Source of the DNA: a virus | DNA: 40,677 nucleotides | IMG/VR virus record: IMGVR_UViG_3300034062_000739 | Span: 1-40,677 of that record | Reading direction: 5' to 3' (one strand) | In this document: positions 144 through 40,677 of the stretch, in pieces | Position numbering within the stretch: position 1 is the stretch's first letter | Layout: each line of letters starts with the position of its first letter | Program-made: the position numbers and the translations under genes | Notes under the pieces: model-generated | Told to the model about the DNA's origin: nothing | Database searches by the model: none | Seen by the model: the letters and a program-made list of their open reading frames with translations, nothing else

Positions 144-158
144 TTTACACGGTGTAAA
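144..158. promoter_or_regulatory. Early dyad site (TTTACA-CGG-TGTAAA)
   Basis: Perfect 6-bp arms around a 3-bp centre. The TAA stop codon of the 145-732 gene lies inside it, and it is 64 bases before the start codon at 80. Part of the 12-member early dyad family; its truncated duplicate is at 40664-40677. Confidence 0.8.
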
Positions 159-732
159 GTTGCAGGTTCTCGACCTGCTCCTTGGTGGGCAGCGAACGAT
201 CTCGACCGCCGATGCCCAGCGACGAACTGGGCGTGAGCTTGACGTACTCCGCCACGCCCTGACTGGGCGGAAGCAGCGGAACCTCTTCCTGCACGACCCG
301 CATGAGGGCCAAGTACAGATTGGTGTCATCCAAGTCTGCGGTGTTCTCGAGGAAAACCCGAAGTGACGCGAGGCAGTCGATCAGGTAGTTGACCATGGTC
401 TCCAGCCGTTCGTCACTCATGTCCTCGACGGCTTCGGATGGATCGATACCTGTGACCCCTGCGTACTCCAGCATCTGTAGGTTGGTCGAGAGTGGGGCTG
501 TCGAGTCGAACGCCATGGCAGGGAAGCCGTCGCACGGTGACATGCCGTTATCGACGGCGATGCTTGCGATGGCCTGATCCCGCATGAACCGAAGAGCGTG
601 GAAGCGGTCGTAGATCTTCGGTGCGATCTCGTGCAGGAACATACCCGGAACGATGGGGTCGAAGAGTGGCTTGGTATCGAGGTTGTACCCTGCGATGTTG
701 CGAGCAGACTGACTTGTGCTAATTCCGAACAT
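145..732 (-). CDS. Hypothetical early protein, 195 aa
   Basis: I do not recognise a family. The start is ATG at 732-730 (MFGISTSQSARN), preceded by ACAGGAGATCACC. A longer reading frame back to 966 exists, but it would translate the dyad and overlap the upstream gene, so it is rejected. The product is soluble and mildly acidic, with no membrane segment. A middle segment (roughly residues 100-140) rich in Asp, Glu and Leu looks helical. It belongs to the run of short early genes each preceded by the dyad and an AGGAGA site, the place where T7-like phages keep host-takeover genes. The stop codon overlaps the next dyad. Confidence 0.8.
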   Translation of the reverse strand: MFGISTSQSARNIAGYNLDTKPLFDPIVPGMFLHEIAPKIYDRFHALRFMRDQAIASIAVDNGMSPCDGFPAMAFDSTAPLSTNLQMLEYAGVTGIDPSEAVEDMSDERLETMVNYLIDCLASLRVFLENTADLDDTNLYLALMRVVQEEVPLLPPSQGVAEYVKLTPSSSLGIGGRDRSLPTKEQVENLQLYTV

Positions 733-751
733 GGTGATCTCCTGTTGCGAC

Positions 752-766
752 TTTACAGGTTGTAAA
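752..766. promoter_or_regulatory. Early dyad site (TTTACA-GGT-TGTAAA)
   Basis: The symmetry extends to ACTTTACA/TGTAAAGT at 750-768. It lies 20 bases before the ATG at 732. Confidence 0.85.
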
Positions 767-774
767 GTCATGGG

Positions 775-792
775 TGTAGTGAGTGTAGTGAG
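775..792. repeat. Tandem 9-bp direct repeat (TGTAGTGAG x2)
   Basis: Two exact copies lie just upstream of the dyad. Read on the minus strand they give CTCACTACA twice, which resembles the CTCACTATA core of T7-type promoters. No more can be said from one locus. Confidence 0.5.
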
Positions 793-805
793 ACGAGTGA
801 ACGAT

Positions 806-1219
806 TCAAGCGCGGCCCTTGACGAGCCAGTTGGAAACGCGGTTCCAAAGTTCATCGGGAAGATCCTGCATGAGAACGTCATCGAGGATCTCACGCGCAT
901 CGACGAGCATGGCCAAGACATGCTCCATGTCTCGGTTGAGATCGTCCAAGGTAATCGGAGCCTCATTGTTGATGACGTCTCCGAGATGGTAGATGAAGTC
1001 GTCGGTACTCATCGAGTGCATGCGACGAGGAACGAAGGTGTCCCTGGAACCATGCGGCTGGAATCCGAGCGGTTCCTTGTAGACCTTGGACAGATCCACG
1101 GGAGGCGTGGACGGGTCGAGGTGAACCCCTGCGTCCTTGTGGTCCTGCCACATGATCCACGCGATTGTGAGCATGAACACGGCGAGTGAACCGAAGATGA
1201 AGATTCCGAAAGCGTCCAT
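806..1219 (-). CDS. Hypothetical early membrane protein, 137 aa
   Basis: Starts at ATG 1219-1217 after an AAGGAGACAGCC ribosome binding site. Residues about 4-23 (FGIFIFGSLAVFMLTIAWIM) form one N-terminal membrane segment. The rest is an acidic, probably cytoplasmic domain with DD, DE and ED clusters near the C-terminus. The family is not recognised. A single-TM early protein could act on the host envelope or on superinfecting phage, but that is only inference. A dyad lies 22 bases upstream and another follows its stop. Confidence 0.8.
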   Translation of the reverse strand: MDAFGIFIFGSLAVFMLTIAWIMWQDHKDAGVHLDPSTPPVDLSKVYKEPLGFQPHGSRDTFVPRRMHSMSTDDFIYHLGDVINNEAPITLDDLNRDMEHVLAMLVDAREILDDVLMQDLPDELWNRVSNWLVKGRA

Positions 1220-1240
1220 GGCTGTCTCCTTGTGTTAGGG

Positions 1241-1255
1241 TTTACAGGGTGTAAA
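1241..1255. promoter_or_regulatory. Early dyad site (TTTACA-GGG-TGTAAA)
   Basis: It lies 22 bases before the ATG at 1219 and directly abuts the stop codon (1259-1257) of the upstream gene. Confidence 0.85.
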
Positions 1256-1256
1256 G

Positions 1257-1520
1257 TCACCACTTGGTGTGGATGACGGTTCGAGTACCGAGAGAACTCT
1301 TCTGCACTTCCTCGATGTAGACGATTTGAGTGCCCAAGTCATCGCCGTGAGTCACGTACATGTGCTCCCAGTCGATATCGGGGCGTTGAGACGGAAGCGA
1401 CTCGAAGTGAGCACCGACCACTTCGGTCACGGTGTTGGAGTCGTCGAACTCATGGGTCTCCCCGGTTTGGATTCCGTTGATACCCGGGATCGTGTAGTGA
1501 ACTGTCCACTTGCTGGCCAT
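1257..1520 (-). CDS. Hypothetical early protein, 87 aa
   Basis: Begins MASKWTVHYTIPG at ATG 1520-1518, with ACAGGAGACAGCC before it. A longer open frame up to 2069 has no plausible start and runs through the dyad and promoter, so the short version is chosen. The alternating polar and hydrophobic N-terminus suggests a small beta-rich domain; no known motif is seen. It is the first gene after the sigma70 promoter at 1609-1637. Confidence 0.8.
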   Translation of the reverse strand: MASKWTVHYTIPGINGIQTGETHEFDDSNTVTEVVGAHFESLPSQRPDIDWEHMYVTHGDDLGTQIVYIEEVQKSSLGTRTVIHTKW

Positions 1521-1542
1521 GGCTGTCTCCTGTGATGTCGTC

Positions 1543-1557
1543 TTTACAGGCTGTAAA
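1543..1557. promoter_or_regulatory. Early dyad site (TTTACA-GGC-TGTAAA)
   Basis: The symmetry extends to 1541-1559. It lies 23 bases before the ATG at 1520 and about 45-60 bases downstream of the predicted transcription start of the promoter at 1609-1637, so it sits in that transcript's leader. Confidence 0.85.
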
Positions 1558-1608
1558 GAGCGGCGTGTTAGTGACCCGGATCGAGGACGTTCCTCGACCC
1601 ATGAACCA

Positions 1609-7496: not shown

Positions 7497-10310
7497 TTAA
7501 CGGAATACCGTAAGATGAATTGAATTGACATCAATTCGATTTCCGGCCCACGACCACTGTCCAACTCGAACCTGTTGCGCTGTAATTCCGTTGCTTCCTT
7601 CGCTAATCTGGGAATTGACTCCATCTGCGTTAGTCGGACTAGAGTCAGCCGCCGCAACCTGACAACAATAGTTTGCATCGGGCATTGCTGTAGCAAAGTT
7701 GATTCGGTAGTCTCCCAGCCCGTTTTCGGTTGATCGAACGACGCTATGGATGTTACCACTGCCGTTGATTTGAAGCGTGGCAACTGGAACAGAAGAGTTC
7801 GACAATGCTCCGGTTGCGCTCGTCGTAACCGTAAATGTCGTTGCGCTTGGAACAGACTGAACACGATATGCGGCTGCCGCCGTATCAATGACGTTTGATG
7901 TGGTCCGAACATAATGGCCAACAATCAAACCGTGAGCTGTAGTAGTCGTAATCGTGCAGGTGGTTGAACCAAGGGTCCTTGTGGCCGTATAGGATCCACC
8001 TGGAACAGTACCAGCAGTGCCAGGACTGAACTTAACCCACGCCCGACACCCAAACACCGGAGCAATCGAACCATAACCAGCGTTCATCGACAGGTTGGGG
8101 ACACTAACCGTACCTGCTGGAGCACCGATTGAAACAGTCGCTGCGGCTCCACCCATATTCAAAGCCGTTGCAGTCGTGTTGAAGACTGCCGCCGTGCCAG
8201 TCGAAGTTGTGGTCACCTCTCCGCCGTTGACGGCCATGTTTCCGCTGGCTACAACATTTCCAGACACTTCCAACTTCTCGGTTGGGGTAACTCCGATTCC
8301 AAGATTACCGCCGGAAGTGATGGTGGCAAGATGGGCCAATGACGCCGAAGTATTTGCGGTCCCGGTCGTAGCTGTACCGAAGAACTGGAAACCACCGTTA
8401 TGGAAACGAAGGAGACTGGCTCGATCAGTACCGCGGTAATTCCAGGTGTTGTTCGTATCGGTAAAGGCCAAGTTATAGCCGATACCAGAATAGTCTCCAC
8501 CTGAATACCCGACACTGAGGCTGTTCCCAGTCAAAGATCCAAACGTGGCGACATTTCGTGTGTTTGTTGCCGGAGCTCCGCCAGCCTGCAACAGGCTGTT
8601 TGGGCTGGTCACGTTGATTCCGACATTGCCGTTGCCAGCAATCGTCAGGTGCGGGGTACTGCTGTTCTGTCCACCAGCAAGATGAAGTTTGGAGCCGTTT
8701 TGACCAGTACGGATGAAAGCGTCGTAAAAACCCGTATCCCAAGCAGGTCTTGGGGTTTTATCGCTGGATGACTGTCGAATCTGAAGGCCAGAAGTGTTGT
8801 TGTGAACAGGCATCTGCAACACAACTTCGGCTCCAGCCGTGTCGCTGGCGTTACGAAGCCGCAACACCGTAGCCGCATCGCCGTTGATCGTGTTGACAAC
8901 GCCGATTGCACCGTTGTTAACCGTCAGTTTCTCTGACGGAGTTTTGGTGTTGATGCCGACGTTACTGCTGCTATTGACAAAGATGGCTGGAGTCGCGGCG
9001 TTTGGCTGGGTTACCAAAGAATGCCAATCAGTCCAGTTTCCCTGATATCGACAGCGAATATGAGTTCCGTGAGTCGGGCTGAGATACGGAATGGCAAGTT
9101 GACTTAAATTAGACGTACCGTTCTTTGGCGCCGCGTATTCAAATGAAAACGGATGGAAATAATCGACAGACGCACCAAACGAAACAGGGCCATTAGCAGA
9201 CTGAGACTGAAGAAGCGTATGCCCGCCACCACCACGCGCATTGGATACGTCGTTCCAGTCTTGAACGCCGCTAGTAGCCATTGCCCCAACTCCGCCAATA
9301 ATCTGCCTAGGGAAAGTCACGTCATCAGCAAACGCAGCCACATTTCGTACTGCGCCAAAGTTACGAACAACAATGTTGTTGGTTCCAACTGGCGGAGCAG
9401 CAGAGAAAGTCAGAGTTGTCCCTGAAATGGTGTAGTTGGTCGTTGGACGCTGGATGACGCCGCCAACCTCAACAAGGAACATCTGGACGTCGGTTGAAGT
9501 CGGAGCGGGGTTCGCCAAAGTGAACGAAGTTACGCCAGCAGCTCCACTGAAGACCCAAGACTGCGGTGTAGCAAGGCCGCCTCCGGTGTAGAAAGTAACA
9601 CCATCGACATACGCCTTTGAAGCCGCATCCTTCGCATCGACTGGCGAAGCGATATTCGTAATTTTCAGGTTTTCTGCGTCCCAGTTTCCAGCATTCAGAA
9701 CCAAGGCGTCCGATGCAAACTTGCTGTCCACATAGTTCTTTGTCGTGGCGTCCTGCGCCGCAACGGGATCGGAAACGCTGTTGATGCGTCGGCTTTCTCC
9801 GTTCCAATGGCCGCCACTAAGCGTCATCGCGTCGGTATCGACCTTGGTATCCACATAGGTCTTGTTGGCCGCGTCATTGTTAGCGGTTGGAGTCTGAACA
9901 TTCTGAATCTTCAGAGACTCTGCATCCCAGTGGGTGTTATCCACGTTCAGGTTGAGAGCTCCGGTTCCAGTGTCGTCAGACTCTTGAACTAGGTACAGAA
10001 GTTGTTTACTGTTGGTGTCCAAATCACTTTCGGACAGAATGGAACCGTTGACGAAGTCCACCAACGGAACATTGTTCGGAGCGTCAGAACGACCTGGCGT
10101 CTTTCGGTAAACGCGAACAATCTGTCCCGCCGTGGCTCCAGTTGTAAGAACAACCGCTGTAGATGGGGACGTCTGAACCGTATAGGCATTCGATGCGAGG
10201 TCAGTTCCGTTGACGGAGACCTTCACATGATCGACGGCAAGATACGGGAACGTAAACGCGAAACTGGTCTGGCCGGAGGTGGCGGTGTACAGGTTGTAAG
10301 AAAGAGGCAT
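7497..10310 (-). CDS. Tail fibre protein (T7 gp17-type N-terminus), 937 aa
   Basis: The first 150 or so residues match the T7 gp17 tail-attachment domain (SYNLYTATSGQTSFAFTFPY; VYRKTPGRSD; SDLDTNSKQLLYL). Three shaft repeats of about 37 residues follow, each with HW/NWD/NxE at the start and a DAxxKxYVD end (about 120-235). Later NxGIxxxxPxxKLxVxxG repeats occur, typical of fibre shafts and knobs. Receptor recognition lies in the C-terminus. It is longer than T7 gp17 (553 aa). ATG at 10310-10308 after AAGGAAAACCAACC. A T7/SP6-like promoter candidate overlaps the upstream stop codon. Confidence 0.92.
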   Translation of the reverse strand: MPLSYNLYTATSGQTSFAFTFPYLAVDHVKVSVNGTDLASNAYTVQTSPSTAVVLTTGATAGQIVRVYRKTPGRSDAPNNVPLVDFVNGSILSESDLDTNSKQLLYLVQESDDTGTGALNLNVDNTHWDAESLKIQNVQTPTANNDAANKTYVDTKVDTDAMTLSGGHWNGESRRINSVSDPVAAQDATTKNYVDSKFASDALVLNAGNWDAENLKITNIASPVDAKDAASKAYVDGVTFYTGGGLATPQSWVFSGAAGVTSFTLANPAPTSTDVQMFLVEVGGVIQRPTTNYTISGTTLTFSAAPPVGTNNIVVRNFGAVRNVAAFADDVTFPRQIIGGVGAMATSGVQDWNDVSNARGGGGHTLLQSQSANGPVSFGASVDYFHPFSFEYAAPKNGTSNLSQLAIPYLSPTHGTHIRCRYQGNWTDWHSLVTQPNAATPAIFVNSSSNVGINTKTPSEKLTVNNGAIGVVNTINGDAATVLRLRNASDTAGAEVVLQMPVHNNTSGLQIRQSSSDKTPRPAWDTGFYDAFIRTGQNGSKLHLAGGQNSSTPHLTIAGNGNVGINVTSPNSLLQAGGAPATNTRNVATFGSLTGNSLSVGYSGGDYSGIGYNLAFTDTNNTWNYRGTDRASLLRFHNGGFQFFGTATTGTANTSASLAHLATITSGGNLGIGVTPTEKLEVSGNVVASGNMAVNGGEVTTTSTGTAAVFNTTATALNMGGAAATVSIGAPAGTVSVPNLSMNAGYGSIAPVFGCRAWVKFSPGTAGTVPGGSYTATRTLGSTTCTITTTTAHGLIVGHYVRTTSNVIDTAAAAYRVQSVPSATTFTVTTSATGALSNSSVPVATLQINGSGNIHSVVRSTENGLGDYRINFATAMPDANYCCQVAAADSSPTNADGVNSQISEGSNGITAQQVRVGQWSWAGNRIDVNSIHLTVFR

Positions 10311-13300: not shown

Positions 13301-15287
13301 TGTCGGCAGCCTCACGCTCCTCCTTGATCGCATCATCGACCTTCTTGGCGTACTCGGCCTCCAGCTTTTTACGCTCAACCTCAACCTCCGCCTTCTTGGC
13401 GTCAAACTTCTTGTTGAGATTTGTGTACTCCCTGCGCTTGGCAGCCAAGTTCTTCTTGGCAGCCTTGAGAGCATCCCGAGCCTCCTTATTTGGACCCTTG
13501 GCCACGACTTCTTCAGCCTTGGCTACAGCCCGTTCAGCCTTCTTGACTTCAGCGGACGCCTTGCGGAGATCAGGACCCAAAGCAATCGATTCACCGCGAT
13601 CCTTGGTCTTCCTAGCGTCATCCAACTTGTCCCGAACAGACTTCAGCGCAGCCCTGCGGGTTTCAAGTTCTTTCTTGGCTCGGTCGAGTTCAGCCGCGGC
13701 TCGCTTCTTCAGGTCGATCTCGATGGACCTGGAGGTCTTCTCCTTGGCAGCCCGAACCTCAGCCGCGGCGTCCCGTAGTTCACGAACAAGAGCCGACGTC
13801 TCAGTCCGACGCTCCAGTTCCATCAGGTTCTCAAAGATGTCGGCTTCAGTGGCGAACGTCTCGGTCTCTGGGTCGTCCACGGCGGCCTTGAGCTTCTCAA
13901 AAGCGGCCTTGTACCTTTGGCGAGAAAGAGACAACTTGGTTCGAGCCGCGGAGACCTCTGGACTCCAGGTAGACGATGCCCCTTCCTTGAACTGGGCTCC
14001 AAGTCGAACTTCCCAAGCCTGCATGCCGGGGGGAGGAGCAGCACCAGTCTCAACCGCCGGGGTAAGCCTGGTGACATAACTCCGACGAACCTTGCGACCA
14101 GCCATGATGTCCCAAACCATCAGGACATCTTCGTTCGTTAGGAAATCATTGTCTTCACGGGCAACAGACCGGATCAGTACGCTGCCCATGCCCTTGACAA
14201 ACCCTTCGACATTGTCGGCCTGCTGAAGGGATCGAAGAACAATCTTTCCGTCGTTGAGTTGCTGGATACGAACCTTGCCTCCAGCGAGTTCGATGCTTCG
14301 GACTTCTTCCTGTCCGGGACGAAGACGCGCCTTGGGACCAGCGACGGCCACGTCATCCAAGACTGGAGACGCTGCGTTTGCTGGATCGGTAAGGGTACGG
14401 ACACCGACAATGAAGGCTCCGGCTTCTTCTCGCTTGACTCCGAATCTAGTGGCAACCTGATCCAAGACGTCATCGGCCCCAAACCGTACCGCCAACTCCT
14501 TACCAGCCATGTTGAGCCGCTGCTCATACTTGGTTGCATTCGCCAACAGTTGGTTCTTGATGAGCGACCTTCCAAACATCGTGTTGGCAACACCGCCAAC
14601 AGCTCCGCCAAAGGCAGCCGCCATGTAAAAGTCATCTGCTTCGGCTGTTGGGTCTACAAGCGAGTCAACCGCCATGTAGCCAATGCCGCCCATGGCTCCG
14701 CTTCCGGCCCCATATGCGAACAGTCGAAGACGACTAACAGTTTGAGCCATCCGGCCAGCCTGAGCAAGACGGCTGGAAGCTTGGGCCACCCTAGCAGCGT
14801 TGGCAGTCGAAACAGCAAATCTCCCACCACCAGCCAAGACAGCCGGAAGTGAAGTTCCGGCAGTTGCAAAGGTAAGTGGGGCCAATTCAAGAATTCCAAG
14901 ACCTAGCGCAGCAACAGCTCCTGAGGCCGATTCTGCAACCTTGGCTGAAGCGTTCAATTTGTACAGGACTTCGTTTCTTGTCTGACGAGCCTCGTAAATG
15001 GAATTGGAACTGAGGATGTCGTCGTGGTACTCGAAAGGAATGCTCTCAAGCAGCGAAGGAAGGTCGCTGGCATTCTTAGTCATCCACTCAGGATCTTCGG
15101 GACCTCCATACCAAGAGCGGAATGCGGAGGAGCCGAGGTCGTACAGAATGGACGTCGTTCCAACGGCCTCGAGAAATCCGGGTTGAGACTTGATACGGTC
15201 TTGTTGAGCCAGCCACTCCGCATCTCTACTTGGAGTTGGAGGCTGAGGAACCGCAACGTCAGGAACCTGCGGAATGTCTGTACTCAT
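10338..15287 (-). CDS. Large internal virion protein (T7 gp16-like position), 1649 aa
   Basis: By size and order it corresponds to T7 gp16, the ejected core protein that helps move DNA across the envelope. The N-terminus is Pro-rich and then has Ala/Gly hydrophobic stretches (about 120-240). A long Lys/Glu/Ala coiled coil spans about 470-690 (for example KAEEVVAKGPNKEARDALKA). The rest is mixed. I do not see the lytic transglycosylase motif usual at the gp16 N-terminus, so wall opening may be done by another protein. Start ATG overlaps the gp15-like stop (ATGA). Confidence 0.85.
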   Translation of the reverse strand: MSTDIPQVPDVAVPQPPTPSRDAEWLAQQDRIKSQPGFLEAVGTTSILYDLGSSAFRSWYGGPEDPEWMTKNASDLPSLLESIPFEYHDDILSSNSIYEARQTRNEVLYKLNASAKVAESASGAVAALGLGILELAPLTFATAGTSLPAVLAGGGRFAVSTANAARVAQASSRLAQAGRMAQTVSRLRLFAYGAGSGAMGGIGYMAVDSLVDPTAEADDFYMAAAFGGAVGGVANTMFGRSLIKNQLLANATKYEQRLNMAGKELAVRFGADDVLDQVATRFGVKREEAGAFIVGVRTLTDPANAASPVLDDVAVAGPKARLRPGQEEVRSIELAGGKVRIQQLNDGKIVLRSLQQADNVEGFVKGMGSVLIRSVAREDNDFLTNEDVLMVWDIMAGRKVRRSYVTRLTPAVETGAAPPPGMQAWEVRLGAQFKEGASSTWSPEVSAARTKLSLSRQRYKAAFEKLKAAVDDPETETFATEADIFENLMELERRTETSALVRELRDAAAEVRAAKEKTSRSIEIDLKKRAAAELDRAKKELETRRAALKSVRDKLDDARKTKDRGESIALGPDLRKASAEVKKAERAVAKAEEVVAKGPNKEARDALKAAKKNLAAKRREYTNLNKKFDAKKAEVEVERKKLEAEYAKKVDDAIKEEREAADRLTKSERLAGDVDAEYAIRRRTKPITSEEEERFVTAFLGWLKRTGADGVPEGMFPLFEKIQQVLMRAFASATDPMLGGRAPKPKVDLFFRELFRKNIAAKLAALERQSNSRLFSRLTAIANGKPVGAVDPPAPVTPDSLPSDWSDAPKTDPSILGVRGGWVAGWLNQGLAAMTSSSGAIRWLGNRLFWARISPVDAAGKFAPQRETIREFIQRVRGVLENKVIREFKSAQREFIYGTSDPTAIGTVDRAKMGWAHKKLAQFNQEVHSEIISPGSSTNPAVQRAANAFRNHFKAMRDMAEEVGLPGFVGLEPDGSYFPRFWSWELIDEFTKTEAGTKDLAKMIRASITIPIVSSVDDPAFIAGEAITELGRDALALKVAERLRELARGTNKGAYTDMDEVMLQVLMEEAPAPVRGKGPYMTPRGRRRVPMDISRKVKLNDGREMSLSELVNSDVMQGLGSYNRSVFGAMGEKMLVDEFRDQLVARGKMTADEAADKIKNWANIKEYLESSELRYGLKSTEVEQMIGHLDELMAGLRSEPAPMSFGALFSQYVGRLLKLGYLHNGQGFGLAAVNESARIAGRTSFTSVARQLPIVRELTEAAKAGTIDPARYPLMGLLDQTLGVASDRLRRTVLSVVDARLNRYDTSTRQGWWQSINNWMKSKLDPNLNQATVLMSDVTGLAPVTSATQMLMAASLIQELFDSTKRGVSTYSDAILAQWGVTRAQFDSFVRKLSETARTNSKGRVIDIDTSTWNGTDFGNFLLFIERGTASSIQDPPVRGDFAKSFWTDWGRLLLQFRTFNMKGITNFLMTSTQRADDRVFKEYMLLGSLSLLTQMARKVVFAPTTKSEKEQKKYWEDSFSNKALLGYFMSGPTENYLLMGGIDSVAQFATGETVFSQNVRYSGLGGSPFDISGTPAWSSLNNYAKAIRGPVQALLREDRDFSQQDLNNLTNILWFRKVTPVFQGLNYLQNRVSGALNLPEKSKVKDED

Positions 15288-17602
15288 GATCCTCCCATAA
15301 TGAACCGAGCCTTGAGATTCGTCTTGGCCCTTTCTTCAGCGGAGACATTGCCCTTGTAGCGGCGAATTGAGTGCTTGATGAGTTCGTCTTTCAGTTGATC
15401 GGACGTCACCGCAAATGGAAACCCGTCTTTCTGGAGTTGTTCAAGTTCACCCGAAGCGGGGCTCACAGCGTCCATAAATGACGCTCCTGCGGGAACAACC
15501 AAAACTTGGTATTGATCTCGGCTTGGATCATACGAAAGCATCACTGCGGAAACTCCGTCGCCACTGACTTTCTTTAGGGACTCGGTCAAAGACGCGCAAT
15601 AACTGGAAACAAGGCTATCATCGGCCAGTTCTGGCGGTGGCCGATCTGGACGCGCAAATGGAGAACCGTTCTCTAGGACGGTCAAGCGAGTATCAACCCA
15701 CTTACCAAGCACGGTTTTCATTGACTCGTCGGACATGTGTGAATTCACGGCGAGTAACGCAGTTGCATGGTCAGCAGCGTAAAGTTCAAGAACTGGAGCC
15801 GCGTCCGCAACCTCGGACGAGGAACGCCATGGAAAGTATGTGCTCATCCGATCTCGAACAACCTCACCAGCGAGCGTAAGTCGATCCTTTGGTGCACCAG
15901 AAGACAGAGCTAGAAGACTGACCTTGGTAGCCGCCGCTTTAGCCGCGTCTTGTGGGTTCTTACCCGCAAGCATGTTGGCGTCCATGAACTCAAGGAATCG
16001 AGTGTGCTCCTTGCTAAAGCCGTGCTTTTCCATTACCGAGACTCCACCTCGTGTTCGGAAGGCTCGAAGCATGTTGACGCCATAAATCAAATTGTTGTCG
16101 AAGTAAACCGCGGGTGAAGCAGTGACTTGTCGAATACTTTCCTGAATTACAGGGGCTTCAAACACTTCCGATCCAGCAGACACCGCATGATCAACAATAG
16201 CCACCGCCCTTATGGGGCTAGTCATGTCAATCTTGCTGTTACGAAAGGCAACCTCTTGTGATGCGGCGTATCGGATATCGCCAAGCAGGGTGTTCACTTT
16301 CGTGTTCAGGGCTTCATCCGAGACTTCTCTCTTGAATTTCGCATACACCTGCGCCAAACGACCGCGAAGAACAGTCTTAAGTTGGTTCGGGCTGCGAACG
16401 ATCAACGACTCGGGATCTGACGGAAGACGCCCGTTTTGATCAGGGGTAAACGCGGCCATGATTCCCTGAGAAACCTGGTACTCGACGCCATCAATCTCAT
16501 TTTTCATGACTCGATCAACAATGGATTTTGCTCCAGAGTTGATCTTGTCGTAATGAGACATGACGTCAGCGCGGGACATGTTTGAACGGACCTTGGTAAC
16601 CCCATAGGTTTCAAACGCATCTTCATCGGGTGGAACACCGTTCTTACCGATATACTCAAGGTAGAACTTTCCAAGCATGTCCCTATCACGATCCGTTCTG
16701 GCCACCTCGATGTTGTCCTTAGCGAGTTCTAGTTGAGCCTTGGCCTGCTTCGTTTCAAGCAACGGCCCGGTTCCAGACTTCAACTTGTACAGAGCCTCTA
16801 CAACAGCCGGATCATCTCCAGAAGCAATAATGGCTTTGATTGCGGCCTGAGCAGCAACCTTATTTACTTCCTCGTTGCCGATTGTTTGAGACGTCTCATT
16901 AACTTTGGGCTGAAGAGCCCCAAAGATCTTAAGAGTTTCTTGTGCTCTGGCTTCTGGGGTATCAGCCTTCACGTTTCCGGCGTCTGCCGCAGCCGCCAGA
17001 ATAGAGACCTCCAGACCATCAGTCATGGCCTTTCGGCGGTACTTAACCACGGCGTTACCATGGTTTTCCGCCATATAGGCAATCCTGGGGTTCACTTCCT
17101 GTAGGAACGACCGCTGCCATACCGGATTGTCCATTCCAGCAGCCATCTCATTCTGAATTCGCTCATTTATGAACGATTCAAAAGAGCCCATGTCGGAGGC
17201 AAACTTAGGATTAGTCTGCATCTTGGTCTCATACTCGGCCTGCCACCTAGAAATAGAACGATGAGCCGAGATCTGGGCGTCAGCCGAAGCGGCCCCAAGG
17301 GCTTCCCACGGGTTCTCAATCGGATCGATTTCACCGTCCTTGACTGCCTGCTGGAACGTATTCCGGCTTTTCTGGAGTTTGAGCTCGCCTTCCTTGATGG
17401 CTTCTGCTCGGTTCTCAGAAATGCGGTTGGCAATGAACGAAGCGGCGGTTTGACTGAAGCCAGCAAAAGCTGCTCCAAGGTCCCGAAGATCGCCACCACC
17501 AGTCTCAACCTGAATTGGCTGAGGAGGCTGAACAAACGGTACAACCGTCGTTGAGATGGGCTGGGCCGTTGGGTTATAAAACGGGTTTGGGAGTTGAGAC
17601 AT
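15284..17602 (-). CDS. Internal virion protein (T7 gp15-like), 772 aa
   Basis: Length matches T7 gp15 (747 aa) and it lies between gp14-like and gp16-like genes. The N-terminus is Pro-rich (PFYNPTAQPISTTVVPFVQP), followed by a largely helical acidic protein, as expected for the inner core and ejection tube. TAATG overlap with the gp14-like gene. No enzymatic motif is seen. Confidence 0.85.
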   Translation of the reverse strand: MSQLPNPFYNPTAQPISTTVVPFVQPPQPIQVETGGGDLRDLGAAFAGFSQTAASFIANRISENRAEAIKEGELKLQKSRNTFQQAVKDGEIDPIENPWEALGAASADAQISAHRSISRWQAEYETKMQTNPKFASDMGSFESFINERIQNEMAAGMDNPVWQRSFLQEVNPRIAYMAENHGNAVVKYRRKAMTDGLEVSILAAAADAGNVKADTPEARAQETLKIFGALQPKVNETSQTIGNEEVNKVAAQAAIKAIIASGDDPAVVEALYKLKSGTGPLLETKQAKAQLELAKDNIEVARTDRDRDMLGKFYLEYIGKNGVPPDEDAFETYGVTKVRSNMSRADVMSHYDKINSGAKSIVDRVMKNEIDGVEYQVSQGIMAAFTPDQNGRLPSDPESLIVRSPNQLKTVLRGRLAQVYAKFKREVSDEALNTKVNTLLGDIRYAASQEVAFRNSKIDMTSPIRAVAIVDHAVSAGSEVFEAPVIQESIRQVTASPAVYFDNNLIYGVNMLRAFRTRGGVSVMEKHGFSKEHTRFLEFMDANMLAGKNPQDAAKAAATKVSLLALSSGAPKDRLTLAGEVVRDRMSTYFPWRSSSEVADAAPVLELYAADHATALLAVNSHMSDESMKTVLGKWVDTRLTVLENGSPFARPDRPPPELADDSLVSSYCASLTESLKKVSGDGVSAVMLSYDPSRDQYQVLVVPAGASFMDAVSPASGELEQLQKDGFPFAVTSDQLKDELIKHSIRRYKGNVSAEERAKTNLKARFIMGGS

Positions 17603-33414: not shown

Positions 33415-33483
33415 AGCTGTGCTCCTATTGAAACTTGAGGTGTTCCATGGGTACTACAGGTAGCCATGTATTTACCTTGGTGA

Positions 33484-33511
33484 ATAGTAACAAGAAAGAC
33501 TTGTATGTCAA
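33484..33511 (-). promoter_or_regulatory. Sigma70-like promoter before SSB
   Basis: Minus strand -35 TTGACA (33511-33506), 16-bp spacer, -10 TACTAT (33489-33484). The adjoining ACCTAGGTCT block (33511-33520) also occurs in the post-terminase gap, so this could instead be a phage polymerase signal. Confidence 0.6.
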
Positions 33512-33526
33512 CCTAGGTCTACTTTA
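33511..33526. repeat. ACCTAGGTCT(A)CTTTA block
   Basis: Ten identical bases plus CTTTA, shared with 4509-4523. Both copies are intergenic. Confidence 0.5.
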
Positions 33527-35941
33527 GGAGAAGTAGTATTTACTCTGGAGTACCTGAGTAATATCCATGTCTCCTAGAGGAGGAACCTCTGGTAAACTAG
33601 AGGTGGATGGTAGCATCGACTGCAACTGATTCCTGAAACTTTCCAGAAGATTCTCGGAAAACATTGCAACTGTAGCCTGTCTCAGGCAGTTATACAGGCC
33701 CTGACTTTCTCCTGCCGTCGTCCCGTAGGAGTCATGGACAGTCATCCAGTTCCTGATTCCAAAGTTCTGACCTGAGTTCACGGTAAGACCTAGTAGACCA
33801 CCGATGCCGTCTAGTGAATGGACAACATTGGCAGCGATGCCATTGTGGGTCTTCCTGGCGTCCATCTTACCGTTGCCAATGCGAACCACATGTTGACGGA
33901 TGGTTCTACCAATGGCCGTCTTGATTGGGACCTTGTCGCTCTGTTCGTACTGCATGTCAACTAGGAAGCCTTGGGGTGTCCACCATTTCGGAGTAACCTT
34001 GTTCTCGATGCAGATGTCGGCAACCTCCTGGAACCAATCCATGCCAACACGAGCTGATCGAACCACTCGGTTGATGGCTTCCCAGATGATCTCTGCCAAG
34101 TAATTACACGGTTTATACGTCTCCGTGCCAAAGGGAGACTCACGCTTGTTCTTCCTCGTCTGCTCGTAGAACCATTCTGCCGTGTACTCACGACACGAGA
34201 AGAACGTAGACCCATATGGCAGGGTCATGGTCTGTCTCTTCGTCGTCTTCCTGTCGATGCCGAACACAAGCCACTTTGTGGCGTAATCAGTGAACTCTGG
34301 TCGTGCCTCTGATTTCAGTAGGTCGAGGGCAACGCTAGCAACTTCGCTGTAGATGTCGCTCGGCTTGTCCCGAGGAAGCACGTTAGTAGCCATGCCTGCC
34401 ACAGGATCCTTCAACAACATTGAATAGATTTGCAGGCCCTGCGTCGTAGCATCCTGGGTCACAGGCAGGCGACTTACATAGCCATAGCCATGACGCTTAA
34501 ACGCCACCCACTCACAGCAGGCTGCAAGGAACTTCCATGGCTTGTCTGCCTTCGTCCATTCCAAGCATCCCCTCGCGTCTGATGCCACTGCGCCTATCAT
34601 GGCCTCGTTCTTGATGACCCAAGCCACCCGTTCGTCGTAGGATGATTTGTCCTCACCCCAGCAGTTAGCAACATGAATGGCAAGCCACTCTGCCGCTACC
34701 TTGTCGTTGATTGGCGTACCGTCTCTGAACAGAAGGAGAGCGGAAGCCCACTCGGGACCCTGCGGTTGCAGGTAATACGGAACTGGATATTCGCGTCCTC
34801 GAAAGTCCAACTGACGAGGAAAGTAGAGAGTGTTTCCCTTGAACTTCTCGCAAAGGTACAGGAGTTTAGATACCTGTAGCCTGCGGCTGGTTTGCTTCTC
34901 AATCTCGAAGTAATGCTTGGCTGCTGACTTTCGCCATGCCCGGAGTTTCTCTGGGTCTGACTTCAGGTCATCAGTAAACGGAGGCGCAGGTTCATCAGCG
35001 GTCGGCGGAAGGGAACCCAGGCTCGCACCTGATTCCCACGAACCTATCATGAGTTGCGCCAGCGACTCATTGAGAACGAACGGAACACTCTGAAGAGTGT
35101 TGACCGCCGAGTAGACCGAAGGCATGCCCATGGTCTCAATGGTGCTGACCCAGTTCTTATCCCTGTTCTTCACCAGCGGCTTGGTCCTGAAGACTCCCTT
35201 GGGGTATCCGCCGTTCGATGGGGAGGTCCAAGGAACTGGCTCCTCGACCATTGGCATGTAGACGGGCTTCATGAACTCGCCCATCTTGTGGGCCGTCTTG
35301 ATCCATTGGAGGATGTCATCAGTCGGCCGAACCAAGGTAACGCTACGGCCCATGACGTTTGTCCGGGTGGTGATCTCGATGATCCCGGTAGCCTCCCGCA
35401 TGAGCTCAATGCACACCATGCCTACCTGAATCATGTCCTTTCGATCCCATGCAGGCAGCGAAAGGTTGCCGTCCCTGGCCACCTTCTTGATGAACTTGGC
35501 CTTGGTCGAGTAGGCCGAGCCGCGGTCGATGTTGCGCTTGATGTGCTTCCAAAGGACTGGCTGATCATCCTGGATGAATCGGAACTTGACTTCGTCCTCG
35601 AGCAGCTTGGCTACTTGGTAAGCCGTTGCTGCAATCTTTCTGTTCTGACTGATGCAGTCGATGATGCACTGGCAAGTCAACCCAGCGATGATGTCTGTAG
35701 GCAGCTGCTCGAGGTACGCCATGGCTCGATGGCGGCGACCCGGCTTGTGCTTTGATTCATTCAGCCACCGCTGGATCCGCTTCTTCAGGGCCGGAACAGC
35801 CTTGGAAAGCAAGCGAGCCCCGGCAGAAGTCGTGGACTCCAGGCCGAGGCTCTGCGCCTTGTGGACTTTGGACCAATGGCGGTTCTTGCCTTCCTCCACC
35901 ATTTCCTTGTTGACTTGAGTCTGGGTCTTGGCCTGTTTCAT
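33524..35941 (-). CDS. Single-subunit DNA-directed RNA polymerase (T7 gp1-like), 805 aa
   Basis: Transcribes the middle and late genes. DFRGREYP (379-386) matches the T7 DxRGRxY block. Motif A has QDATTQGLQIYS with D497. Motif B has DRKTTKRQTMTLPYGS with R564, K568 and Y576, the exact spacing of T7 R627, K631 and Y639. HNGIAANVVHSLDG is followed by motif C WMTVHDSYGT with D737. Shorter than T7 gp1 (883 aa). Unlike the other middle genes it has its own early dyad and follows a terminator, so its expression appears separately controlled. Confidence 0.97.
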   Translation of the reverse strand: MKQAKTQTQVNKEMVEEGKNRHWSKVHKAQSLGLESTTSAGARLLSKAVPALKKRIQRWLNESKHKPGRRHRAMAYLEQLPTDIIAGLTCQCIIDCISQNRKIAATAYQVAKLLEDEVKFRFIQDDQPVLWKHIKRNIDRGSAYSTKAKFIKKVARDGNLSLPAWDRKDMIQVGMVCIELMREATGIIEITTRTNVMGRSVTLVRPTDDILQWIKTAHKMGEFMKPVYMPMVEEPVPWTSPSNGGYPKGVFRTKPLVKNRDKNWVSTIETMGMPSVYSAVNTLQSVPFVLNESLAQLMIGSWESGASLGSLPPTADEPAPPFTDDLKSDPEKLRAWRKSAAKHYFEIEKQTSRRLQVSKLLYLCEKFKGNTLYFPRQLDFRGREYPVPYYLQPQGPEWASALLLFRDGTPINDKVAAEWLAIHVANCWGEDKSSYDERVAWVIKNEAMIGAVASDARGCLEWTKADKPWKFLAACCEWVAFKRHGYGYVSRLPVTQDATTQGLQIYSMLLKDPVAGMATNVLPRDKPSDIYSEVASVALDLLKSEARPEFTDYATKWLVFGIDRKTTKRQTMTLPYGSTFFSCREYTAEWFYEQTRKNKRESPFGTETYKPCNYLAEIIWEAINRVVRSARVGMDWFQEVADICIENKVTPKWWTPQGFLVDMQYEQSDKVPIKTAIGRTIRQHVVRIGNGKMDARKTHNGIAANVVHSLDGIGGLLGLTVNSGQNFGIRNWMTVHDSYGTTAGESQGLYNCLRQATVAMFSENLLESFRNQLQSMLPSTSSLPEVPPLGDMDITQVLQSKYYFS

Positions 35942-35969: not shown

Positions 35970-35984
35970 TTTACAGGCTGTAAA
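35970..35984. promoter_or_regulatory. Early dyad site before RNA polymerase (TTTACA-GGC-TGTAAA)
   Basis: It lies 29 bases before the RNA polymerase ATG and downstream of the terminator. It is the last member of the family in transcription order; I found none before any middle or late gene. Confidence 0.85.
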
Positions 35985-36010: not shown

Positions 36011-36043
36011 AAAATCCCCGCCCTGGCTTGCGCCAAGACGGGG
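36011..36043 (-). terminator. Rho-independent terminator before RNA polymerase gene
   Basis: On the minus strand CCCCG-U-CUUGGC pairs with GCCAGG-G-CGGGG (two U-G pairs) around GCAA, followed by ATTTTTATTT. It follows the DUF932-like gene and precedes the RNA polymerase gene, closing the early transcript. Confidence 0.88.
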
Positions 36044-36060
36044 ACTCACAGGAGAAGCTA

Positions 36061-36097: not shown

Positions 36098-36889
36098 TCA
36101 AGTGAGAGAGTTAGCGACCTCCTGCGGAGTCTGGCCTTCAATGCCGAACTCCGTGTTGAGGATCTTGTGCAGACGGTTCACGCGGGTTGACCGCTCGAAC
36201 GGAGAGCGACCGCGGTCGTATGAAGTGAAGGCGTTGTACAGCGACCAGACGTTGCGAGGACGGAACTCGTCGTGCTCGGGGGTGCGCCAATGATCCAGCA
36301 CTTGGCCGATGCCAGAGGCCGGGATGATCCCCTGTTGATACGCCTGACACACGACGTGATGCACCTGACGGTCGCTGCCAGCGTCGGTATCCAAGTACCG
36401 CATGAACTGCTCGAAGATGACGTTGGCTCGGTGATTCACCGTCCTGACGCTGTTCTCGACGAATCCGTCAATGCGGGAGAACACGTTGGACGTGTGCTTG
36501 GTCCGCATCAGGTACTCCGCCGACAGGCAGCCATTGGTGCATACATATACCTCTGCACCCATGGCAGTCTTGATGGCGACCTGACGGTTGTACGAGTTGA
36601 TGAGTGCGACCTGCCACCTGAATCCCATGCCAATCGGGAGGTGCAAAGAACGAACGCTGATCTTCGACAGGAACACGTCTTCCTTGTTCGTGGCGAAGTG
36701 CTCCTCTGCCTCGATGGCGTACCCCGAGCGAGTCATGGCGGCTGCCCAGGTATTGAACAGCCTGACGTGCTGCACGGGCTGGTAGGACGCTGTTGCTGGC
36801 GGTACTGGCATGCGACTGATGTCGTCGAGGGAGCAACTCTTACCCCAAACGAACTCGCGACGATTCAAACCGTTGTTGACTGAAACCAT
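36098..36889 (-). CDS. DUF932-like early protein, 263 aa
   Basis: Start ATG 36889-36887 after AAGGAGAGCACACA; the open frame to 36958 crosses the dyad and is rejected. FRWQVALINSYNRQVAIKTA and VYVCTNGCLSAEYLMRTKHT follow the DUF932 pattern (NSYDxS ... VxVCxN ... RKHT), a family common on phages and plasmids with no settled function. It is the last early gene before the terminator. Confidence 0.75.
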   Translation of the reverse strand: MVSVNNGLNRREFVWGKSCSLDDISRMPVPPATASYQPVQHVRLFNTWAAAMTRSGYAIEAEEHFATNKEDVFLSKISVRSLHLPIGMGFRWQVALINSYNRQVAIKTAMGAEVYVCTNGCLSAEYLMRTKHTSNVFSRIDGFVENSVRTVNHRANVIFEQFMRYLDTDAGSDRQVHHVVCQAYQQGIIPASGIGQVLDHWRTPEHDEFRPRNVWSLYNAFTSYDRGRSPFERSTRVNRLHKILNTEFGIEGQTPQEVANSLT

Positions 36890-36911: not shown

Positions 36912-36926
36912 TTTACAGGCTGTAAA
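36912..36926. promoter_or_regulatory. Early dyad site (TTTACA-GGC-TGTAAA)
   Basis: The longest symmetric member: 9 matching bases on each side of the 3-bp centre (36909-36929), overlapping the stop codon of the upstream gene. It lies 23 bases before the ATG at 36889. Confidence 0.88.
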
Positions 36927-36927
36927 G

Positions 36928-37395
36928 TCAGCGGGACATTCCAGACAGGGCTTCGCAAACATTGCGAAGAACCCCCTGAATCTTGGTGACCTGAACCACC
37001 AAATCAAGTATCTCACTCTTCATGCCGCGCATGTCTTCCGGCGTGACGGGCCAGCCCTCGTCATTACGGGCCTTGTTGCTGGCTGATTCCAGCGCATCGA
37101 GTCGAACGTTCAGTCCTTGAATGTCTTCCTCCAAGTCATTGACTCGCTCGTCGCTGGCGCAGTCTTGGACGTTCGACTCAACGTCCTCGATATCACTGCG
37201 AAGGTCATGAATATCGCCCTGCGTGACGAGTTCCCCGGTATCGATGTCGTCGAGCTTCCGCTCCAACTCATCGACCCGTCCTGACAACTCGCTGTCGCTG
37301 ATCGCGGAGTCCAGGTCGAGGTGGCTGGTAACGGCCTGCGCCAGTTCCTCGATGGCTGACTCGGGAATGTTCACATCAATCGTCTTCGTGCTCAT
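36928..37395 (-). CDS. Acidic coiled-coil early protein, 155 aa
   Basis: MSTKTIDVNIPESAIEELAQ opens the protein; heptad-like segments follow (ELSGRVDELERKLDDIDTGE; RVNDLEEDIQGLNVRLDALE). Strongly acidic, likely an elongated oligomer or DNA mimic. No family recognised. ATG follows CAGGAGACAGCA. It is the first gene after the promoter at 37494-37522. Confidence 0.75.
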   Translation of the reverse strand: MSTKTIDVNIPESAIEELAQAVTSHLDLDSAISDSELSGRVDELERKLDDIDTGELVTQGDIHDLRSDIEDVESNVQDCASDERVNDLEEDIQGLNVRLDALESASNKARNDEGWPVTPEDMRGMKSEILDLVVQVTKIQGVLRNVCEALSGMSR

Positions 37396-37429: not shown

Positions 37430-37444
37430 TTTACACCCTGTAAA
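37430..37444. promoter_or_regulatory. Early dyad site (TTTACA-CCC-TGTAAA)
   Basis: It lies 35 bases before the ATG at 37395 and about 40-55 bases downstream of the predicted start of the promoter at 37494-37522, the same arrangement as the dyad at 1543. Confidence 0.85.
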
Positions 37445-37493: not shown

Positions 37494-37522
37494 AATATAT
37501 CAGACAGACTGGATCTTGTCAA
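37494..37522 (-). promoter_or_regulatory. Sigma70-type early promoter
   Basis: Minus strand -35 TTGACA (37522-37517), 17-bp spacer, -10 TATATT (37499-37494). It starts TTGACAAGATC like the promoter at 1609-1637. The -35 overlaps the last codons of the methyltransferase gene. Confidence 0.8.
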
Positions 37523-38517
37523 GTCGCTGAACCAGTCCGATCAAGTCGGGCCATGCGTCTGCCAAGCCACTTGATGACTGGGACAGCCATGCTGTTACCA
37601 ATCGCCTTGTAGCGCGCCGAGTCGGACGCTGGCTTGCCGCGGAACGGAACCAATGTCCAATCGTCGGGGAACCCCTGAAGCCTCTCGCACTCACGAGGCG
37701 TCAGCCTGCGGACACCGAGATCGGTCAATACACCGTGTGTATCCCGCTCGCAGATGTCGTAGGTATTGAGGGTGTTGGCCGTGTTGGCTGGAACCCAAGT
37801 CTCGTGGTCATCGACCGATTGAGGACGACGAGACTTGCGGAACACCGTCAGGTTTTGGCATTCGTCGCCTGATGGTCCCCCTGTTCCCTTGTGCCACTTG
37901 CTGCTGACAGTCGCAGCGCAGTCCGCAATGGCTCCACTATTGCCTTGCCTCGACGCCCCGCTCGCAGGAGGATTCCCGAAGCAGCTTTCGGACTCAAACA
38001 ATACTTGGTGGGAGCCTGGTGTTCCAAGACTTCCGACAAGTATGACGCGCCTGCGCCTTTGGGGAATTCCGAACCATTGAGCGTCAAGAATCCTCCATGC
38101 GACTGAATACCCCATGCGAGCCAGCGGCCCGATGAGGGCGGCAAAATCATGCCCTCCACCTGAAGACAGAACTCCAGGGACGTTTTCCCAGACACAGTAT
38201 CTAGGTCTGACACGTTCAACGAGGCCAAGGTATGCATACATAAGCTGCCCCCTGGGATCTTCAAGGCCCAGTCTCCGGCCTGCCGTGGAAAAAGATTGGC
38301 ATGGCGTTCCGCCGATGATGATGTCGATGTCGCCTTCTTGGATCTTCCAGTTCTCATGTTGCGTGAGGTCTCCATAGTTTGGGATGGTGGGGTAGTGATG
38401 AGCCAACACGGCGTTGGCAAACGGCTCGATCTCGCTGAATCCAATGGGATTGAAACCGAGTGGTTTCCAAGCAACCGTGGCCGCTTCAATCCCGCTGCAT
38501 ACGCTCAAGTAGTTCAT
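37519..38517 (-). CDS. DNA (cytosine-5) methyltransferase, 332 aa
   Basis: All main C5-methylase motifs are present: I SVCSGIEAA (5-13), IV GGTPCQSFS with catalytic C73, VI ENVPG (111-115), VIII QRRRRVILVGS (153-163), IX RRLTPRECERLQGFP (270-284) and X AIGNSMAVP (305-313). The target recognition region is about 165-265, so the specificity cannot be read. No restriction enzyme is next to it, which suggests protection of phage DNA against host restriction. The dyad is only 12 bases before its ATG. Confidence 0.96.
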   Translation of the reverse strand: MNYLSVCSGIEAATVAWKPLGFNPIGFSEIEPFANAVLAHHYPTIPNYGDLTQHENWKIQEGDIDIIIGGTPCQSFSTAGRRLGLEDPRGQLMYAYLGLVERVRPRYCVWENVPGVLSSGGGHDFAALIGPLARMGYSVAWRILDAQWFGIPQRRRRVILVGSLGTPGSHQVLFESESCFGNPPASGASRQGNSGAIADCAATVSSKWHKGTGGPSGDECQNLTVFRKSRRPQSVDDHETWVPANTANTLNTYDICERDTHGVLTDLGVRRLTPRECERLQGFPDDWTLVPFRGKPASDSARYKAIGNSMAVPVIKWLGRRMARLDRTGSAT

Positions 38518-38529
38518 GTGGTCCTCGAC

Positions 38530-38544
38530 TTTACAGGTTGTAAA
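38530..38544. promoter_or_regulatory. Early dyad site (TTTACA-GGT-TGTAAA)
   Basis: It lies 12 bases from the methyltransferase ATG, so the GAGGAC ribosome binding site almost touches the dyad. A bound protein or an RNA hairpin here could directly affect translation. Confidence 0.85.
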
Positions 38545-38580: not shown

Positions 38581-38775
38581 TTAGTCCAGTCTGACGATGT
38601 CGTTCTTCAACGCCACGAGGAACGATGTCTCGTCGTCAGTAAGCCAGTACTCGACAGCCAGTCGATCCACGAGTGGCAGCATGTGCGCGATGACGCCAAG
38701 TTTGCCCTGATCATGGAGTTCGTCTAGCCGTATGATGTAGTCAGACAGGAAGCATGGTTCGGGTGTCAACGTCAT
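38581..38775 (-). CDS. Hypothetical early protein, 64 aa
   Basis: ATG 38775-38773 overlaps the stop of the Gp88-like gene (ATGA); an earlier in-frame GTG at 38787 is less likely. Contains CFLSDYIIRLDELHDQGKLG and VEYWLTDDETSFLVALKND, a small acidic helical protein. It is one of the few early genes without its own dyad, since it is coupled to the gene before it. Confidence 0.7.
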   Translation of the reverse strand: MTLTPEPCFLSDYIIRLDELHDQGKLGVIAHMLPLVDRLAVEYWLTDDETSFLVALKNDIVRLD

Positions 38776-39572
38776 TCCAGGATACACCCCTCACGAACCG
38801 CGAACTGACCCGCAGTATCGGGAGACACGCCCTTGAGTTTGAGCCCGACGATGCAACTGCCGGGATCCAAGAACCGCAGGTCGTGCGCGTCACCGTTGAC
38901 GACAGGGTAACCCATGAACTTCTTGGGGAACCAGCCCGCAAACACCATGGACACACGGCCGCCTGAATCCAGGATGGACTTGCAGTCCGACCAGTTGTAC
39001 CCGCTGTACGAGAACGTCAGATCGTAGTTGGGGAATGGGCGCAACAGTCGAGCCGCGATCTTGGTGTAGTCGTAGTTGCGATACCCAAGATCCGTGGCGT
39101 ACTGAAGCATGCCGGGGTTGTGCGCCTCGTGAACGATGTCGCTGAAGGTGTTCCAGCGTACTGCCATCCGCTTGGCTGTAGCCATGCGCTCAAGCTCGTA
39201 AGCGATGATGCCCATGGCTGCTTCGGGGTGGCGGAACAGGAAGTTAGTGCGAGCGATGCGAGCATCGACAACCGCGGGATACCTAGCGTTGCCTGCGGTG
39301 TGACCGATGCAGGCTCGTCGGCACTCGTCCGTACAACTGGGACAGACATGGAAGTCGGACATGTCGGCTGGTGCGAGCGAGAGACTGACGGTTTGCCAGC
39401 CCTTGGCCTGACCCTTGGCCAACTTGGAGTTGGCTGATGGAGGCGAAAGGTACGAGCCGCCGCTGATCCTGCGCCACGCTGCTCGAGCCTCGTCTGCCGG
39501 GAGTCGTCTGTCCCAGGCACCCTTGATTCGAGCGTAGGCCGATGGCTTTACAACTTGTAAAGAGGTAGTCAC
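38772..39572 (-). CDS. Gp88-like phage protein, 266 aa
   Basis: FHVCPSCTDECRRACIGHTA places four cysteines at 77, 80, 84 and 88. AVVDARIARTNFLFRHPEAA, then WNTFSDIVHE and YDYTK ... YDLTFSYSG follow the order seen in the phage Gene product 88 family, whose function is unknown; the Cys cluster suggests a metal or Fe-S centre. GTG start at 39572-39570 with AGGAGA 7 bases away. The dyad lies inside the coding region at codons 5-9. Confidence 0.8.
   Translation of the reverse strand: MTTSLQVVKPSAYARIKGAWDRRLPADEARAAWRRISGGSYLSPPSANSKLAKGQAKGWQTVSLSLAPADMSDFHVCPSCTDECRRACIGHTAGNARYPAVVDARIARTNFLFRHPEAAMGIIAYELERMATAKRMAVRWNTFSDIVHEAHNPGMLQYATDLGYRNYDYTKIAARLLRPFPNYDLTFSYSGYNWSDCKSILDSGGRVSMVFAGWFPKKFMGYPVVNGDAHDLRFLDPGSCIVGLKLKGVSPDTAGQFAVREGCILE
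39547..39561. promoter_or_regulatory. Early dyad site inside the Gp88-like coding start (TTTACA-ACT-TGTAAA)
   Basis: Extended to 39546-39562. Here the dyad encodes residues 5-9 (LQVVK) rather than lying upstream. If the site acts in regulation it would act as a roadblock or translational element. Confidence 0.8.
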
Positions 39573-39619: not shown

Positions 39620-39648
39620 ATGATCTCATGGTTTGGGCTTATTGTCAA
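39620..39648 (-). promoter_or_regulatory. Possible sigma70 promoter before Gp88-like gene
   Basis: Minus strand -35 TTGACA (39648-39643), 17-bp spacer, -10 GATCAT (39625-39620), a weak -10. It overlaps the end of the 39-aa membrane protein gene. Confidence 0.4.
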
Positions 39649-39745
39649 ATCGCAGATAAACCCATAACAAGTAGAGGGAGATACTGATGAACACCACCCA
39701 GTATCCGAGTGTCAGGAATTGAAACACGGGGTGAATATTCCTCAA
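39626..39745 (-). CDS. Tiny single-TM early protein, 39 aa
   Basis: Read from the sequence: TTG at 39745-39743 overlaps the stop of the preceding gene (TTGA), with GGGGAGG just before. The product MRNIHPVFQFLTLGYWVVFI continues with a Leu/Tyr/Trp-rich segment and ends RFDNKPKP. Residues about 8-31 are one membrane span. The same TTGA coupling is used by the gp13-like and large terminase genes here. Role unknown. Confidence 0.6.
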   Translation of the reverse strand: MRNIHPVFQFLTLGYWVVFISISLYLLWVYLRFDNKPKP

Positions 39746-40084: not shown

Positions 40085-40099
40085 TTTACAACCTGTAAA
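40085..40099. promoter_or_regulatory. Early dyad site (TTTACA-ACC-TGTAAA)
   Basis: It lies 20 bases before the ATG at 40065; the upstream gene's stop codon (40103-40101) lies one base beyond the dyad. Confidence 0.85.
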
Positions 40100-40601: not shown

Positions 40602-40677
40602 GGGTGTTCTCCTTATGAGGTAAAGCCCCGGCTCCACGAATGGAACCGGGGCATGGTGCTGCGGTTTACACGGTGTA
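40522..40677. repeat. Terminal overlap of circular assembly (copy 2)
   Basis: Matches 1-156 except at 40560 versus 39. It includes the gene start, the hairpin at 40625-40652 and the first 14 bases of the dyad at 40664. Confidence 0.9.

Follow-up and report, generated by a model that had tools for sequence, protein, structure and literature searches.

The window (the whole 40,677-nucleotide stretch analyzed here) is an IMG/VR virus record of a T7-like phage. Its gene set [single-subunit RNA polymerase, T7-type SSB, primase-helicase, DNA polymerase, portal, scaffold, capsid, and terminase] is T7-like and lies on the minus strand throughout. The early region runs from ca. 2900 down to 1, over the join of the record, and on to the gene of the T7-type single-subunit RNA polymerase (33524–35941). 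The two ends of the window overlap by ca. 153 bases (1–153 = 40525–40677) with one visible base difference, which represents an assembly overlap or a terminal repeat. The integrase and resolvase families PF00589 and PF00239 were absent from the six records searched, some of which are partial.

The early region starts with gene 1 (1994–2674; 226 aa), which encodes the protein proposed below to bind the repeated dyads and has a predicted helix-turn-helix at approximately residues 73–96 and a basic Ala-rich tail. It continues with gA (1257–1520; 87 aa), gB (806–1219; 137 aa, putative membrane protein), gC (145–732; 195 aa), gD (40101–40604; 167 aa), gE (39742–40065; 107 aa), gF (38772–39572; 266 aa, GP88 family), gG (38581–38775; 64 aa, coupled to gF), gH (37519–38517; C5 cytosine methyltransferase), gI (36928–37395; coiled-coil protein), and gJ (36098–36889; conserved early protein of 263 aa). 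The start of gD falls within the terminal overlap and is also found at 80. No homologue of gC was found in the close relatives G001 or G003, and none of gD in G003.

Palindromes of the early region

A 15-base palindrome, TTTACA-N3-TGTAAA (TTTACANNNTGTAAA), occurs in 12 exact copies in the window, every one of them in the early region, from 2842 across the circular join to 35970. It is the palindrome with the most repeats in this genome, its arms do not vary within the window, and it appeared in none of 300 Markov-simulated genomes. The repeated dyad that had been noticed at early genes in an earlier reading of the sequence only is therefore real.

Eight of the 12 dyads lie 12–34 bases upstream of a start, against a null expectation of 0.54 for the range of 10–35 bases, and the median distance of the start-associated dyads is ca. 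21. These eight are located at 752–766 (19 nt upstream of gC), 1241–1255 (21 nt upstream of gB and 1 nt past the gA stop), 1543–1557 (22 nt upstream of gA), 35970–35984 (28 nt upstream of the RNA polymerase gene), 36912–36926 (22 nt upstream of gJ and 1 nt past the gI stop), 37430–37444 (34 nt upstream of gI), 38530–38544 (12 nt upstream of gH), and 40085–40099 (19 nt upstream of gE and 1 nt past the gD stop). The distance of 12–35 bases that had been given for the early genes holds for these sites and not for the other four. The dyad at 144–158 is 63 nt from the start of gD and contains the gC stop codon, and that at 39547–39561 occupies the first codons of gF, just past its GTG start and inside the ORF. 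The non-coding dyad between gene 1 and promoter A (1785–1799) and the one upstream of the gene 1 promoter (2828–2842; 153 nt from the gene 1 start) are not start-associated. The earlier statement had the dyad touching or covering the preceding stop codon at most early genes, which was too broad, since this is true of four of 11 genes (gB, gE, and gJ, by 1 base, and gD). The genes at 38775 (gG) and 39745 lack a dyad, as had been claimed.

The sequence-only reading had further included a AACACAAGGAGA-type leader, following the dyad, in a common gene-start module. The exact form ACACAAGGAGA was found at two starts only (1219 and 40065), and the same leader stands at dyad-free genes of relatives (gX and gJ of G001; gB, gE, and gJ of G003). 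Since the leader occurs in relatives both with and without a dyad, the two are separable, and the AACACAAGGAGA/ACACAAGGAGA leader is a separate Shine-Dalgarno context that is also found without a dyad.

Five early-type promoters, all on the minus strand, were predicted in the window, compared with 12 dyads. They are the sigma-70-type promoter of gene 1 (TTGACA-16-TATCTT; 2742–2769), promoter A (TTGACA-17-TAAGAT; 1609–1637), and the promoters of gF (TTGACA-17-GATCAT; 39620–39648), gI (TTGACA-17-TATATT; 37494–37522), and SSB (TTGACA-16-TACTAT; 33484–33511). Sigma-70 promoters were predicted at matching positions in the window, G001, and G003, and promoter A is followed by a 5′ hairpin, TCGAGGAACGTCCTCG, common to relatives. 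A strong intrinsic terminator lies on the minus strand just before the RNA polymerase gene (36012–36047), and G001, G002, and G003 have a similar hairpin with a T-run there. Given this terminator, early host transcription may end ahead of the phage RNA polymerase gene; the dyad at 35970–35984 lies past it. Dyads are found at ca. +12 to +53 from the predicted promoter starts (ca. +45 for the dyad upstream of gA and ca. +43 for that upstream of gI), off the −35 and −10 boxes, and also at internal gene boundaries that have no promoter. Some lie before terminators or upstream of promoters. Judged from these predicted landmarks, the dyad positions would agree more with a block to elongation than with the occlusion of promoters.

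A hairpin, TCGAGGANCGTCCTCG, opens predicted early transcripts of the window (1582–1597, minus strand), G003 (11130), G005 (1388 and 4237), and G007 (8292 and 9308), and is possibly a 5′ stem that stabilizes the mRNA. In G005 and G007, a GTGATGACAGCG-like sequence is repeated upstream of early promoters. The sequence CGCTGACTATA near the RNA polymerase start was considered as a phage promoter and dropped, as it does not recur at late genes.

Dyads in related phages

The closest relatives are G001 (39.8 kb), with a 77% identical RNA polymerase, G002 (4 kb), and G003 (17.7 kb), all of which have early genes in common with the window. The window motif is absent from all three, and G001 and G003 have dyads of their own at corresponding boundaries (GTWTACC-NN-GGTADAC and TTTACC-NN-GGTAAA, respectively). 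A terminase scan added G005, G007, G011, G015, and G016. The dyad GTTTAC-N4-GTAAAC is found in G001 (in degenerate form), G003, G005, and G007, and the sister clade of G011, G015, and G016 has GTCTAG-N3-CTAGAC or GTCTAG-N4-CTAGAC.

When the gap between the TTTAC and GTAAA half-sites was counted, all 12 window sites had gap 5 and none gap 4, while gap-4 sites numbered 11 in G003, 18 in G005, and 14 in G007. G011 has 11 TCTAG sites with gap 3, and G016 has six with gap 4. Arms and gap are nearly constant inside one genome and different between genomes. Departures from this pattern are three gap-5 matches in G007, one TCTAG gap-4 site beside six gap-3 sites in G015, one site of each gap in G002, and degeneracy in G001 at the arm base adjoining the outermost GT.

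In a FastTree tree of the terminases, the window pairs with G001 (support 0.84) inside an otherwise gap-4 clade (1.0), and the GTCTAG phages form a separate clade in which both gaps are present. Because this tree nests the window within the gap-4 clade, the 1-bp wider spacing of the window (gap 5) is, on the tree, the derived state, and it would have changed at all 12 sites. The gH site was altered in place: the flanks and left half-site (AGAGGGGCCGCGCATCTCT and ACGCGGTTTAC) are common to the window and G001, and the right half is shifted by 1 bp. The only old-type site left in the window is a relict dyad in the SSB leader (33471–33484; TTCACCAAGGTAAA, one mismatch to TTTACCNNGGTAAA), where G001 and G002 have dyads. 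In G001, six of the 12 early-region sites carry a T-T mismatch that breaks the would-be RNA stem.

Such a joint change of a dozen dispersed sites, with a 1-bp shift in spacing, is what a trans-acting dimeric protein would require, and it would follow neither from homology for recombination nor from RNA hairpins acting one by one. The concerted genome-wide change thus backs a shared regulator, one part of the earlier proposal that every early gene is under the same post-initiation control. It does so at the DNA level, as G001 has not kept the RNA stem.

G005 and G007 have a dyad after nearly every early stop codon, including those that precede terminators. At most of their starts the dyad reads GTTTACAGGAGTAAAC-ATG and includes the Shine-Dalgarno sequence. 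In G003 (L021, transcription sense), a perfect dyad at 11976 falls inside the coding sequence of the gB homologue, close to where a dyad truncates the gB homologue of G001.

Candidate binding protein and alternative roles of the dyads

Gene 1 is the first early gene, with dyads beside it, in all nine records that cover the place (the window, G001, G003, L103, G005, G007, G011, G015, and G016), and in L103 its predicted promoter lies between two dyads. The model of the gene 1 domain is helical, with a helix-turn-helix-like segment (pLDDT 91). No family match was obtained in Pfam, NCBIfam, or PHROG, and a comparison with PDB sequences gave only weak matches to designed repeat proteins. A Foldseek search against the PDB returned nothing significant; the most probable matches were Noc and RK2 KorB of the ParB family (probability 0.11–0.12, E ca. 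7). An assignment of gene 1 to the KorB/ParB family was rejected, as PF08535 is absent and the Noc and KorB matches are not significant.

The gene 1 proteins of the TTTAC lineages are of an RVSQ/RFSQ type and are related to one another at the helix-turn-helix (hhalign E 0.0013, compared with 0.07 to 0.79 for unrelated early proteins). Those of the TCTAG lineages belong to another family, with ST[VIC]Y. Between the two families, hhalign gave a match for G016 (E 0.0072) over the low-complexity N-terminal half and no signal for the others. The type of gene 1 tracks the half-site in the nine genomes of two clades, a small sample, and this correlation is suggestive as a pointer to the binder. The gene 1 product is probably the best candidate.

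The concerted change, the stem-breaking mismatches of G001, and the location of sites downstream of predicted promoters together argue for a role of the dyads as DNA operators, at which a trans-acting protein would block elongation. We therefore favor, with reasonable though not high confidence, the reading that they are operators of one phage-encoded dimeric protein, most likely that of gene 1, which would act probably as an elongation roadblock. We infer that the gene 1 protein would be made early from its own host-type promoter, with a dyad nearby, and would bind the palindromes downstream of early promoters and at early gene boundaries, up to the phage RNA polymerase gene. The bound protein would then probably form a stoperator-like roadblock to the elongating host RNA polymerase; such an action is probable because the sites are in the transcribed region and off the −35 and −10 boxes. 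Early transcription would be damped or shut off, possibly as the phage polymerase takes over. In G005 and G007, the direct overlap with the ribosome-binding site leaves room for translational control.

The sequence-only reading had proposed that the dyads make each early gene an exchangeable cassette, like T4-type promoter early stem-loops (PeSLs), which combine a promoter and a stem-loop; most window dyads lack a promoter. Several gene differences do follow the dyads. Three or four of those between G005 and G007 are whole dyad-to-dyad units, and b5 (G007 9824–10033) lies exactly between two identical 16-bp dyads. The G005 junction at the place of b5 keeps both the left flank with the dyad (GACTAACAA-dyad) and the right flank (ATGGGACT), which puts the joint in or next to the dyad. 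Two dyads of the ribosome-binding-site type are stranded without a gene before terminators (G005 2392 and G007 10444), gA and gB are swapped between the window and G001, and recombination between repeats has been inferred for cluster O phages (PMC4351075). However, nearly every junction in G005 and G007 has a dyad anyway. In the window's group, genes that were gained or lost (gC, gX, gY, gM, gN, gO, and gP) have a dyad at eight of 14 boundaries, which is about the base rate, as 50–57% of all junctions have one (7–8 of 14 in G001 and G003). About half of the insertions in this group accordingly have breakpoints unrelated to dyads. Furthermore, dyads also flank gene 1 and precede the RNA polymerase and SSB genes, where gene order is constant, and homology alone would neither produce a dyad nor shift every site and the spacing of a genome together. 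It is thus unlikely that the dyads mainly mark exchangeable cassettes. They can apparently serve as joints, but joints would not be their distinguishing feature; under the operator reading, gene shuffling at the dyads would be a by-product of identical 15–21-bp repeats at gene boundaries.

Alternatively, the dyads could act as RNA hairpins in the leaders and control how the mRNA of each early gene is translated or processed. This would agree with their location 12–34 nt before starts, with predicted RNA folds of −4.2 to −9 kcal/mol in most examples, and with G005 and G007, in which the Shine-Dalgarno sequence is in the loop of GUUUACAGGAGUAAAC, 2–4 nt before the ATG. In contrast, half of the G001 early sites have the T-T stem mismatch, and one such site forms no hairpin. 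The window arms are invariant in sequence rather than covarying, and the sites upstream of the gene 1 promoter lie outside the gene 1 mRNA. We consider a primary role as RNA hairpins quite improbable. If every lineage had a host of its own, a host protein could recognize the sites, but a host regulator that uses the dyads as operators to control early phage genes is very unlikely, as site sequence and spacing vary among phages of one clade, are uniform in each phage, and track its own gene 1 type.

Comparison with repeats of other phages

Among known systems, the stoperators of cluster A mycobacteriophages (20–30 sites, mostly not at promoters, where bound repressor blocks elongation; their consensus and the repressor of the same phage diverge in parallel; PMC6550527) are the best mechanistic model. 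Like them, the window dyads are away from predicted promoters and within the transcribed early region. Stoperators differ in being asymmetric, oriented with transcription, bound by a monomer, and carried by temperate phages, whereas the sites described here are palindromes in phages with no integrase match.

Microbacterium cluster EG phages have start-proximal inverted repeats, GATCAACC-NN-GGTTGATC, to which no function was given (PMC7302621). In both systems one perfect palindrome stands in short intergenic regions, ca. 14–22 bp before starts in EG and 12–34 (median ca. 21) in the window, and no integrase gene has been identified, which here holds for the six records searched. The three EG phages have one and the same sequence; among the T7-like relatives described here, sequence and spacing switch across the whole genome, and a candidate binder is proposed. 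Cluster O mycobacteriophages carry 17-bp dyads, TGTTCGG-NNN-CCGAACA (PMC4351075), which resemble those of the window in their invariant arms (over 34 sites), variable 3-bp center, predicted dimeric binding protein, and some deletions between repeats. However, the O sites are loosely tied to starts, ca. one-third are coding, most are away from promoters, and their sequence is the same in five phages. The start-associated sequences of cluster K (SAS and ESAS; PMC3203893) are likewise tied to translation starts in non-structural genes, with an inverted-repeat consensus that varies by subcluster, but SAS is a 13-bp asymmetric sequence resembling a ribosome-binding site and the 17-bp ESAS is an imperfect inverted repeat whose spacer varies. 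PeSLs, named in PMC4503421, resemble the dyads in being repeated between early genes, where a role in shuffling has been proposed for them.

Start-proximal palindromes have thus been reported in several actinophage clusters without a function or binding protein. The related phages described here provide a natural experiment, with the same gene boundaries, different palindromes, 1-bp spacing switches, and a dyad-flanked gene that tracks the palindrome type, and a single purified protein with two short DNAs would suffice to test the question. We tentatively suggest, as a possibility rather than an expectation, that this lytic T7-like clade has a genome-wide early regulon under a fast-evolving operator-binding protein, whose recognition sequence and spacing would have switched more than once, at nearly all of the 5–18 sites each time. 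In one branch the operator would be fused with the ribosome-binding site, forming operator, translation start, and gene-exchange joint at once. This raises the question of how a regulator could evolve in step with a dozen or more of its sites.

Outside these genomes, searches of the phage collection with megablast, with the protein encoded at 15284–17602, or with gene 1 returned no close relative; RNA polymerase identity reached at most 37% there, and the RNA polymerase detected no close relative in bacterial genomes. Scans with GP88 and the methyltransferase retrieved mostly unrelated phages, none with the TTTAC dyad. Dyads were not found in the extra terminase relatives; most of these records end before the early region. 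No repeated dyad was present in three named T7-like isolates, and the TTTAC and GTCTAG motifs are absent from the more distant T7-like genomes G010 and G027. G027 (L274 and L275) has ten TTAACT-N-AGTTAA palindromes across the genome, several of which are located before starts.
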